Below, piece by piece: positions 21,483-45,981 of a stretch of DNA of 64,000 nucleotides. A model generated the notes under the pieces. The model made no database searches and had not been told where the DNA came from. It worked only from the letters and a program-made list of their open reading frames with translations. Source of the stretch: Gemmatimonas sp. (lineage in GTDB: Bacteria > Gemmatimonadota > Gemmatimonadetes > Gemmatimonadales > Gemmatimonadaceae); the NCBI RefSeq assembly GCF_027531815.1, contig NZ_JAPZSK010000004.1:62001-126000 (forward strand), written 5' to 3'. The translations under genes were made by a program, and so were the position numbers. The stretch's first letter is position 1. Every line of letters begins with the position of its first letter.

Positions 21483-21861
21483 GACCGACGAACGCACCGC
21501 CTCACCTTCTCCCTCGCGCACGGCACCGAGTGGCCCGCCCCCCGCCGCGATCGGCAGCCTGCTGCTGGCCGTCGTCGTGGGCGCAGGGGCCTGGTACTGG
21601 TTCGGCCGCGCCGCCGACGCCGGTGTGCGCCGTCTCGAACGGCTCGATACCATGCGCGCCTATTGCGAGCGATTCTATGCGCAGGCCCGCGACAAGAACG
21701 ACACGATGCGTGTGGATCGCGCCGCCGTGCCCGATACCGTCGATGCGGGATCGAAGGACGCCTTCGATCGGTGCGGGGATTTCCGCGGACCCAGCGTCCC
21801 CAACGCGCTGCCCAATCCGCGCGAGATGAATGGCCAGGAGATGCCTCGCGGACTGCGGTGA
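21481..21861 (+). CDS. Small single-pass membrane protein, function unknown
   Basis: 126 residues from ATG at 21481. A Pro/Ser-rich N-terminus of about 22 residues leads into one hydrophobic segment (IGSLLLAVVVGAGAWYWF). A soluble, charged C-terminal part follows, with two Cys residues (YCERF and RCGDF) that could form a disulfide. No family was recognised. It lies between the amidase and the M19 dipeptidase on the same strand with short gaps, so it may be cotranscribed with them. Confidence 0.6.
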   Translation: MTDERTASPSPSRTAPSGPPPAAIGSLLLAVVVGAGAWYWFGRAADAGVRRLERLDTMRAYCERFYAQARDKNDTMRVDRAAVPDTVDAGSKDAFDRCGDFRGPSVPNALPNPREMNGQEMPRGLR

Positions 21862-21874
21862 ACCGCCACCCGTC

Positions 21875-23056
21875 ATGAAGAAAATTCTCCTTGGCCTCAT
21901 CGTGCTGCTGGTCACCGCCGTGGTGGCTTTCTTCACCATCGTCCCGGTGGTGGTGGATGGTCGCATGAACAGCGTGGTGAGCCCCACCATTCCCGACGTC
22001 TCCCCGCGCGCATCGGCGCTGCATCGCACGCTGTTCGTGGCCGACCTGCACGCCGATGAGCTGCTCTGGGGGCGCGACCTGCTGGAGCGCGTGGACCGCG
22101 GGCATGTGGATTTGCCGCGGCTGCAGGAGGGGAAGGTGGCGCTGCAGGTGTTCAGCGTGGTCACCAAGACGCCGCGCGACATGAACTACGGGCGCAACAC
22201 CGGCGAAACCGACAACATCGCGCTGCTCGCGCTGGCGCAGCGGTGGCCCAGTGAAACGCGACGCAGCCTGCGGGCGCGCGCCACGTATCAGGCTGAGCGG
22301 TTGCAGGATGCCGTGCTGCGCGCCGGGGGGGCGATCACGCTCATCACGTCGCGTGATTCGCTCGAGGCGTTTGTGGAGCGGCGCGGTGGCGACCCCATGC
22401 AGGTGGGTGCGCTGCTGGCCATCGAGGGGCTGCACGCGCTCGACGGCGAGCTCGCGAGCGTGGACGTGCTCTTCGCCCACGGCTATCGCATGATGGGGCT
22501 GACGCACTTCTTCGACAACGAGGTGGCGGCCAGTGCGCACGGCGTGTCGCAGGGCGGGCTCACGCCCTTCGGCCGGCAGGTGGTGCAGCGCATGGAGCAG
22601 CTCGGCATCATCGTGGACCTGGCGCACGCCTCGCCGCGCACGGTGCAGGAGGTGCTGGCTGTGGCGACGCGTCCCGTGGTGGTGTCGCATACGGGGGTGG
22701 CGGCGGTGTGTCCGGGCTCGCGCAACCTCACCGACGCGCAGCTGCGGGCGATTGCCGCCAACGGGGGCCTCATCGGTATCGGCTACTGGGACGGCGCGGT
22801 GTGCGCGCCCACCATCGAGAACATCGTGAAGGCCATTCAGCACGCCGTGAGCGTCATGGGTGTGCGGCACGTGGCGCTGGGGTCCGACTTCGACGGGGCC
22901 ACGAAGACGCCGTGGGACACGCGCGGCGTCGTCGTGATTACCGATGCCTTGCTCAAGGCCGGCATGCGTGAGGACGAGGTGGCGCGCGTGATGGGAGGCA
23001 ACACGCGGGACTTTCTCTGGCGGCTGCTGCCGGAAGCGCAGGCGCACGGGCGCTGA
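21875..23056 (+). CDS. Membrane dipeptidase, peptidase family M19
   Basis: 393 residues; the ATG at 21875 (MKKILLGLIVLLVTAVVAFF) gives a membrane anchor or signal. Peptidase M19 metal sites are all visible: DLHADELLW (first His/Asp), LLAIEGLHAL (bridging Glu), HASPRT and VVSHTGVAAV (His ligands), and GSDFDGATKTP (Asp). The family hydrolyses dipeptides, often with D-residues, in the periplasm. The gene sits downstream of an amidase and a small membrane protein and is the last gene before the repeat array at 23127. Confidence 0.9.
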   Translation: MKKILLGLIVLLVTAVVAFFTIVPVVVDGRMNSVVSPTIPDVSPRASALHRTLFVADLHADELLWGRDLLERVDRGHVDLPRLQEGKVALQVFSVVTKTPRDMNYGRNTGETDNIALLALAQRWPSETRRSLRARATYQAERLQDAVLRAGGAITLITSRDSLEAFVERRGGDPMQVGALLAIEGLHALDGELASVDVLFAHGYRMMGLTHFFDNEVAASAHGVSQGGLTPFGRQVVQRMEQLGIIVDLAHASPRTVQEVLAVATRPVVVSHTGVAAVCPGSRNLTDAQLRAIAANGGLIGIGYWDGAVCAPTIENIVKAIQHAVSVMGVRHVALGSDFDGATKTPWDTRGVVVITDALLKAGMREDEVARVMGGNTRDFLWRLLPEAQAHGR

Positions 23057-23082
23057 CGCCTTCGGGGGAGGAGCTACGCGTG

Positions 23083-23126
23083 GGCAACAACGGAGGACCG
23101 GCGTGTTGGCAACAACGGAGGACCGG
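23083..23126. repeat. 19-base direct repeat, two copies
   Basis: GGCAACAACGGAGGACCGG occurs at 23083-23101 and again at 23108-23126. It immediately precedes the inverted array and is part of the same repetitive locus. Confidence 0.8.
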
Positions 23127-23403
23127 GGACGCGTTGGCACGGACGCGTTGGCAGGAACGCGTTGGCGGAGACGCGTTGGCACCGACGCGGAGCAACGCGG
23201 GCAATAACGCGCGGAGCAACGCGGGCAATAACGCGAGAAGCAACGCGTTGCCCCCACGCGGCAACCACGGTCGACCGCTCCGCGCAATTACCCGCGTCGG
23301 TGCCCGCGTCGGTGCCCGCGTCGGTGCCCGCGTCGGTGCCCGCGTCGGTGCCAACGCGTTCCTGCCAACGCGTAAGTGCCAACGCGTCCGTGCCAACGCG
23401 TCC
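23127..23403. repeat. Large inverted array of ACGCGTTGGC units (64-bp imperfect stem)
   Basis: Left arm 23127-23190, right arm 23340-23403, with the central 149 bases between. The outer 27 bases (23127-23153 against 23377-23403) are perfectly complementary. The remaining 37 pairs have about 6 mismatches and no gap. Each arm holds four copies of the 10-base unit ACGCGTTGGC or its complement at about 14-base spacing. The centre holds two 22-24-base repeats (AGCAACGCGGGCAATAACGC) at 23191-23236 and five perfect copies of CCCGCGTCGGTG at 23291-23350. Open frames across it give only short-period peptides, so it is unlikely to be coding. Confidence 0.9.
23291..23350. repeat. Five perfect tandem copies of a 12-base unit
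   Basis: CCCGCGTCGGTG repeats exactly five times at 23291, 23303, 23315, 23327 and 23339. The last copy merges into the right arm of the inverted array. Perfect identity implies recent expansion or conversion. Confidence 0.95.
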
Positions 23404-23528
23404 TCGATCGCGCGTAGTTGCTGTCCGTCGTTTCCGCCCGCCACTCCGTGTGTCGGTCCGGACCGCCCGCGTCCCGCGCCCGCGGCGCCGACAGGCAACA
23501 AATCCCCCCGTTCCGGTGTTCTTCGGGT

Positions 23529-23936
23529 ATGCCTCAGTTTGTTGCCATTGTGCCCGTGCTGCGAGTGTCCGATGTGGAGCGCAGCATTGCCTGGTATACG
23601 GCGAACCTCGGGTTCGCGCCGGAGCCGTCGCCGAGTGCGCCGCCGTTCGAGTCGTGCATCCTGCGTCGGGATGCCACCGAACTGATGCTGCGCCGCGCCG
23701 TGGCGCCGCTCACCAAAACGCGGGGCTCCTACGAGTGGGATGTGTACATCCGGCTATCAGGCGATGAACTCACCAGCCTGCTCGATCATGCGCGCCGGCG
23801 TACACCGCTGGTGCGCGGTCCCGAGGTCATGCTCAGCGGCACCGTGGAGTTCGAGCTGGAAGACCCCGACGGCTACCGTGTGTGTGTGGCCGAGGCGCTC
23901 CGCGATACCCGCGGATTTCCGCGCGCGGTGGGCTGA
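23529..23936 (+). CDS. VOC-family (glyoxalase/bleomycin resistance-like) protein
   Basis: 135 residues from ATG at 23529. The vicinal oxygen chelate fold is indicated by PVLRVSDVERSIAWYTANLGF at the start and the C-terminal FELEDPDGYRVCVAE. Length matches a single-chain VOC protein that would dimerise. Such proteins include metal-dependent lyases, dioxygenases and drug-binding proteins, and the sequence does not decide between them. It lies alone between the repeat array and a convergent M20 gene. Confidence 0.88.
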   Translation: MPQFVAIVPVLRVSDVERSIAWYTANLGFAPEPSPSAPPFESCILRRDATELMLRRAVAPLTKTRGSYEWDVYIRLSGDELTSLLDHARRRTPLVRGPEVMLSGTVEFELEDPDGYRVCVAEALRDTRGFPRAVG

Positions 23937-45365: not shown

Positions 45366-45878
45366 ATGAGTCTTTCGACCCTCGATGGGACCCTGCACCG
45401 CGGGTGCGGGGGCCGTTACGCCCTGCAAACGGAAACGGTGACCATGCGGCTGAGCGGCATGGCCGCCGAGGTGACGCGCGAGTTTTTCCGGTGCGAGAAG
45501 TGCGCTCATGAACAGCGCACCATTGAACAGCGCGACGCCGCGGAAAAGTCGGCGACCGAGTATATCCGGGCGGAGCACAACCTGTTGGCGCCCAAGGCCA
45601 TCCGTCAGTTGCGCGAATCGCTGGGGCTCACCCTGCCACAGTTCGCGGAGCTGATCTACGGGACCCCCAAGGGGATCGTGGACGGGTGGGAGAAGGGGAA
45701 ATACCTGCAGAACCGTGAGGCCGACGCGCTCATTCGCGGCCTGGCCGATCGTGAAACGCTGGAGCTGCGGGCGGCGAAGGCGGGGGTGCCGCTACCGGTG
45801 GTGGAAATGGCCGCGGCTTCCGTTCCGGCGGTGGTCCCGGCCGCGGGCGCCGGCGCCGCCCCCCCCGCGCACCCATAG
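45366..45878 (+). CDS. MqsA/YgiT-type zinc-finger HTH protein
   Basis: 170 residues from ATG at 45366. The N-terminus has a zinc-ribbon pattern (HRGCGGRY then FRCEKCAHEQ). Residues about 68-125 form an HTH of the MqsA/YgiT kind (PKAIRQLRESLGLTLPQFA and GTPKGIVDGWEKGKYLQN). The last 40 residues are Ala/Pro/Val-rich and probably disordered. MqsA antitoxins pair with MqsR toxins, but no toxin-like ORF adjoins it, so it may be a stand-alone regulator. The stop codon runs into a very G-rich tract. Confidence 0.78.
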   Translation: MSLSTLDGTLHRGCGGRYALQTETVTMRLSGMAAEVTREFFRCEKCAHEQRTIEQRDAAEKSATEYIRAEHNLLAPKAIRQLRESLGLTLPQFAELIYGTPKGIVDGWEKGKYLQNREADALIRGLADRETLELRAAKAGVPLPVVEMAAASVPAVVPAAGAGAAPPAHP

Positions 45879-45960
45879 GGGGGGGCGCGGGGGGGGGGGG
45901 GCCGCCTCCGGGTGTGGTCAGGGCCGGGGGCTGGTGTGCGGGGGGGGCGCCCGCCGGCGC
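45879..45960. other. Extremely G-rich tract
   Basis: Just after the MqsA-like stop codon come runs of 8, 13 or more, 5 and 8 G bases separated by one to a few tens of bases. Multiple G-runs of this length can form G-quadruplexes on the displayed strand. Such tracts are also prone to assembly and sequencing errors, so exact lengths are uncertain. Confidence 0.7.
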
Positions 45961-45981
45961 CCGCGGCCGCGGCCCAGCCGG

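Follow-up and report, generated by a model that had tools for sequence, protein, structure and literature searches.

An inverted-repeat hairpin of Gemmatimonas as a probable S23-less copy of a dispersed S23-hairpin element

What is the inverted array of short repeats that lies between a peptidase M19 gene and a VOC/glyoxalase gene in Gemmatimonas sp., and to what kind of element does it belong? Within the window, that is, the whole 64,000-nucleotide stretch of DNA analyzed here, the left array (23129–23180, + strand) contains four ACGCGTTGGC units starting at 23129, 23143, 23157, and 23171, and the right array (23350–23401, − strand) contains four complements starting at 23350, 23364, 23378, and 23392, with a 14-base period throughout and 149 bases between the arms. 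The inner left stem (23186–23233, + strand) consists of two identical 24-mers in direct repeat, CGCGGAGCAACGCGGGCAATAACG, and the inner right stem (23292–23351, − strand) of five 12-mers, CCGCGTCGGTGC, in direct and inverted repeats; both sets of centre repeats, like the 4 + 4 inverted units, are found as the original prediction had described them. The apical region between them (23234–23291, no strand assigned) holds a degenerate form of the GGCGACC..GGTCGCC hairpin found at the apex of many copies of the family described below. On the outside, two degenerate direct repeats of ~25 nt (GGCAACAACGGAGGACCGG; 23077–23126, + strand) form the outer left stem, whose fold partner is 23402–23437, and the right array is followed by an outer boundary motif, CCTCGATCGCGCGTAG (complement CTACGCGCGATCGAGG; 23402–23417, − strand), which is common to most copies. 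The M19 gene (21830–23056, + strand; PF01244, E 1.5e-70) has its stop codon 27 nt before the paired region. The VOC/glyoxalase ORF (23418–23936, + strand; PF00903, E 4.4e-7) probably has its true start near 23530, at MPQFVAIVPVLRVSDV, where the homologues in relatives begin.

The arms at 23109–23190 and 23340–23421 (82 nt each) are 85% complementary without gaps and constitute by far the strongest inverted repeat within the 64-kb window, with a local alignment score of 45 as compared with a maximum of 13 among 200 dinucleotide shuffles. Folding of 23080–23440 gave −250.9 kcal/mol as RNA (z −11.6) and −156.3 kcal/mol as DNA (z −12.6), values equalled by none of 100 shuffles in either case, which supports the large cruciform or hairpin that had been proposed. 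Moreover, the pairing continues outward to about 23083/23437 and inward through the 24-mers and 12-mers, and the unit is therefore a single hairpin of about 355 nt (23083–23437, no strand assigned), lying between the M19 stop codon and the VOC gene with both ends joined in the minimum-energy fold. Thus, the inverted array originally placed at 23127–23403 is real, but its extent was drawn too short. Its separation from coding sequence, insertion sequences, and CRISPR was judged right; 10-nt repeats, 4-nt spacers, inverted arms, and non-cas flanking genes rule out a CRISPR array, and a REP/BIME assignment was rejected because the palindrome of about 355 bp exceeds the 20–40 bp of that class. Elsewhere in the window, a very GC-rich, low-complexity stretch (45833–45974), which contains long G runs and a weak inverted repeat of 34 nt (82%), may reflect poor sequence quality.

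A fold of this strength could also belong to a structured RNA at transcript ends, which, once transcribed, would terminate or shield mRNAs or serve as an RNase III substrate and be retained for that function. The strong RNA fold, the start 27 nt past the M19 stop codon, and the removal of rRNA IVS hairpins by RNase III (PMC4990558) agree with such a role, which we nevertheless regard as rather improbable: the + strand has no U-tract terminator and the other strand one weak, chance-level match, an Rfam search of the hairpin locus gave no match above the gathering threshold (and no rRNA match either), and some copies of the hairpin, such as L040, lie between divergent gene starts.

These copies were found in a census by pattern search and BLAST, in which the genome of the window (G000) was compared with those of the sister species Gemmatimonas sp. 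CoA8N_M110 (G014), a third species (G005), and further relatives. The ACGCGTTGGC-N4-ACGCGTTGGC pair occurs 32 times in G000, clustered at inverted arrays, and a reversed-pattern control gave 0 occurrences; together with weaker copies added by the DNA search, the genome contains 14 family loci, 11 of which have both arms. Their order is modular, running from outer 13-mers near GGGGAACGACGC through the boundary ACGCGCGATCGACG, the 14-mer array, and 12-mers near ACGCGGGCACC to the mirror image. The outer 13-mers vary in number, the element edges differ between copies, an empty site was seen only in a diverged relative, and the number of repeat units differs between orthologous hairpins. Among 29 congeners, the exact pattern occurs in G014 alone (28 have no exact sites and 27 no relaxed ones), and it is absent from 149 further genomes of Gemmatimonadaceae. 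Of the 13 mapped loci of G000, 12 have a syntenic counterpart in G014, and most of their flanks are 84–94% identical. In G005, the hairpins have stems of >100 bp and an altered unit, ACGCGYTGGGANNN (ACGCGYTGGGA), and three of them (L090, L093, and L094) occupy loci common to G000 and G014, so the unit has changed at orthologous places. Single exact-pattern matches in Verrucomicrobia, Planctomycetes, and Streptomyces were not counted as family, and the G029 matches and L104/L105 from the DNA search were discarded as low-complexity chance matches. On sequence comparison, the family is of long standing, its copies keeping their positions between G000 and G014, and no recent jump of it was seen among the compared species.

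The copy in the window has its G014 counterpart (L052) at a contig end. At the same locus in other congeners (L062, L065, L068, L069, and L072), a small multidrug resistance (SMR) gene (PF00893) separates M19 from VOC, with no hairpin at the site; in G000, the SMR gene is missing and the hairpin occupies its place, and G005 has neither hairpin nor transporter there. The checks suggested in the original prediction have yielded, for the locus, an orthologous copy in G014 and no hairpin in the other relatives compared, and, for the unit, a dispersed family including members with a gene in the loop that had gone unnoticed. Membership of a well-known dispersed repeat family, named at the outset as grounds for dismissal, holds as to dispersal but not as to being well known, since no description was found. 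The family is provisionally regarded as previously undescribed, because the literature search covered open-licence PMC only. Several G014 copies, and G000 copies of a second family, lie at contig ends, as might be held in favour of an assembly artefact or contamination; however, orthologous copies with flanks 84–94% identical stand in two independent assemblies, and S23 hairpins (see below) also occur in single-contig genomes (G001, G002, and G003). The window hairpin is therefore no assembly artefact, the probability of which we consider negligible.

The units themselves differ in constraint along their length. In 101 and 117 units collected from two genomes, positions 1–10 showed an entropy of 0 to 0.9 bit and the last three spacer positions 1.4–1.8 bit, with 35 and 32 different spacers, respectively, although the requirement of at least 7/10 matches for collection somewhat favoured the 10-mer over the spacer in this comparison. 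The 10-mer, almost invariant while the 4-nt spacer is free, is probably under constraint, because homogenisation alone would level the spacers as well. A left arm also fits the right arm of its own element better than right arms taken from other elements (permutation p 1.5e-4 in G000, 0.04 in G014, and 0.07 in G005). Hence, of the earlier suggestion that the arms arose by inverted duplication and homogenisation, the likeness of arms within an element is borne out, but a local duplication is too narrow an origin because the element belongs to a dispersed family that has been kept by vertical descent.

A 10-mer that hardly varies beside freely varying spacers is compatible with the earlier idea that each unit may bind a protein, and the inverted array might accordingly be read as a series of operator sites, in which a host protein (a dimer on ACGCGT) binds each ACGCGTTGGC to control genes or organise the chromosome and the inversion is secondary. 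The 218 almost invariant 10-mers, with 32–35 spacer forms per genome and a fixed 14-bp period, and the concerted change of the unit in G005, like that of a co-evolving site, accord with this reading. It is unlikely, however, given that neighbour genes of the family copies have no common orientation or function, that 28 congeners lack exact sites and 27 even relaxed ones, and that cognate arms track each other; it also leaves unexplained the gene found in the loop of one member and the arms around unrelated genes of the same kind, as described below.

That member of the family (L044 in G000, L053 in G014, and L094 in G005) has an intact S23 ORF (PF05635, E 9.4e-20) in its loop. PF05635 is the four-helix-bundle '23S rRNA-intervening sequence protein', and the S23 of the family is related to the solved structures 2gsc and 2rld. 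In L044 (G000:C4:394213-395029), the ACGCGTTGGC arrays and boundary motif of the window copy recur around the S23 gene; the window copy thus has its arms in common with an S23-bearing hairpin of its own genome. The presence of S23 in a family loop led us to examine S23 genes in general for framing by inverted arms. Within the genus, 51 of 67 S23 loci are framed (score at least 15) as against 3 of 870 control intervals. The framing arms are tandem arrays of short units that differ by S23 lineage and often have a period of 7 or 14, and 46 of the 51 loci have a G-skewed 5′ arm. In other genera of Gemmatimonadaceae, framing was found for 19 of 26 S23 genes, including perfect arms of 71 and 59 bp and one arm of 177 nt; this set includes a genome that matches Gemmatirosa kalamazoonensis. 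Beyond the Gemmatimonadaceae, arms are short, and in Verrucomicrobiota just 4 of 17 S23 loci reached the threshold. On named plasmids, a score of at least 12 was reached by 11 of 16 S23 genes (the maximum among 512 controls being 11), including those of Calothrix, Nostoc, Anabaena, Geminocystis, Leptolyngbya, Stanieria, Picosynechococcus, and Azospirillum, with arms consisting mostly of G-rich heptamers, e.g., GTAGGGT, GTAGGGA, and AGGGAAC. Since the S23 locus sets include orthologues, all these counts overstate the independent cases. The association suggests that S23 and the framing inverted short repeats may be one kind of genetic element.

Some S23 genes stand apart. Eight of the 14 arm-less S23s on the tree fall within one clade of ten, and ychF neighbours several of these eight in the ORF lists (L111, L113, L121, L124, and L172); this lineage is possibly a domesticated copy. 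On cyanobacterial plasmids, three S23 genes (L243, L296, and L301) lie inside CRISPR-Cas operons, twice as cas6-S23-cas4 and once as cmr2-S23-cmr3, and two Calothrix brevissima plasmids carry identically arranged S23 loci (L293 and L294) adjoining a phage-integrase-family gene.

In all 11 hairpin pairs compared, S23 showed a dN/dS of 0.05–0.18, which indicates purifying selection and hence a protein in use. Moreover, S23s that are more alike tend to have arms that are more alike, even among pairs <70% identical (r 0.28), a value reached in none of 2000 permutations. G-U mismatches in the S23 sense are not in excess over A-C mismatches in S23 hairpins (164 vs 219), so a role as RNA in the S23-sense orientation is unsupported, which weighs further against the structured-RNA reading; nor was any Rfam rRNA match found at S23 loci. 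These data also bear on the possibility that the hairpins are by-products of replication, in which fold-back slippage and template switching make and repair palindromes between genes without any trans-acting factor and S23 is a chance passenger. Although the variation of unit copy number among orthologues and the ability of inverted arms to invert in place would be natural outcomes of such events, a fixed 10-mer with free spacers is unlike the outcome of slippage, and the framing of 51 of the 67 loci, the purifying selection on S23, and its co-divergence with the arms render this explanation quite improbable.

Both S23-bearing and S23-less copies occur within one genome in three arm families. 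Besides the family of the window, these are a second in G000 (L177 with and L231 without S23) and a third in the congener G016 (L162 with and L289 without S23). The second, unrelated hairpin family, to which L177 (G000:C8:81000-87000) and L231–L241 belong, has a unit near GGTACTGCCACTGCGGTC and many copies at contig ends. Comparison of sites and REARRANGEMENT revealed three states of one site flanked by convergent genes: no element in G016, an S23-less member of the window's family in G005, and, in both G000 and G014, an S23-bearing hairpin built from a different unit. At a second intergenic site, G005 carries the window's family and G016 that of L162. G016 and G020 have collinear flanks at the L162/L166 locus, but the hairpin with its S23 is inverted in place. 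Two S23 elements at different loci of G016 (L160 and L161) are 93% identical over 1.85 kb, and their arms are ~120-nt repeat arrays containing small hairpins. The site differences, the inversion, and the near-identical pair show turnover of the elements. As no catalytic gene was found to accompany S23 and no target-site duplication could be defined, mobility is inferred from the site differences only.

Collectively, we consider it likely that the hairpin in the window is a copy of a dispersed S23-hairpin element that has no S23 of its own and looks non-autonomous. The full element would be a long DNA palindrome of short tandem units with an S23 gene in the loop, the S23 protein presumably recognising its own arms, in the form either of RNA or of DNA folded back on itself. 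Copies with S23 would act as the source, and those without it would be spread or maintained in trans; slippage would lengthen or shorten the arms, which arm-to-arm conversion would re-match on folding. Such an element would be selfish, well tolerated, and intergenic, with the hairpins of 23S rRNA IVS as its ribosomal cousins.

Similar features are known separately from other systems. BOX elements of Streptococcus pneumoniae are modular stem-loops with inner units variable in copy number, as here, but their sequences and host differ, and we know of no link between BOX elements and S23. MITEs are gene-less copies that exist alongside gene-bearing ones, again as here, but the present hairpins yielded no defined terminal repeat or target duplication. 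BIME/REP sequences with RAYT are likewise dispersed extragenic palindromes, presumably kept by a protein in trans; compared by size and tags, however, REPs have 20–40 bp and GTAG/CGTC tags (PMC3733652), in contrast to the modular 300–1000 bp stems tied to S23 here. In Xanthomonas, G-rich heptamers (GGGAATC) form 70–75 close inverted pairs per genome in intergenic regions, and the heptamer repeats of Xanthomonas and Nostoc are stable in position between species (PMC4692102), so that short tandem intergenic repeats, inverted pairing, and positional stability are all shared with the present family; S23 is mentioned 0 times in that paper. The nearest known system is the rRNA IVS of Coxiella and Leptospira, in which an S23 ORF is likewise looped by terminal inverted repeats. 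In Coxiella, the terminal stem measures 28 bp and the ORF is preceded by tandem GACAGAT heptamers (PMC4990558), as compared with stems of 30–200 bp of tandem units here. These IVS lie in rRNA genes, whereas the present hairpins are intergenic and dispersed and, in the window's family, mostly lack the S23 that occupies the IVS loop. The window element has terminal inverted repeats forming a stem, but it is itself no IVS, lying between the M19 and VOC genes rather than inside a 23S rRNA gene and having no S23 ORF in its 149-nt loop, which is too short for one.

More tentatively, as a joint reading that we hold to be possible but short of probable, S23/four-helix-bundle proteins may serve in trans as the factor for a widespread class of hairpin elements that has gone unrecognised. 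This class would extend over Gemmatimonadota, Cyanobacteria, Proteobacteria, and Verrucomicrobiota, be bounded by inverted G-rich short repeats, insert at intergenic positions, even within cas operons, and give rise to copies that lack S23; two of its manifestations would be the IVS of ribosomal genes and the orphan heptamer repeats found in Xanthomonas and cyanobacteria. No paper tying S23 to intergenic inverted repeats was found in the open-licence PMC literature. S23 proteins occur commonly and have solved structures (2gsc, 2rld) but no known function, and the origin of the rRNA IVS hairpins and of the abundant intergenic heptamer repeats has been a question for decades. The rule that S23 lies between inverted repeats, together with the S23-less spread of the same arms, would offer one testable explanation for all three, and the S23 hairpins provide suitable material on which to assay S23 binding and mobility for the first time.
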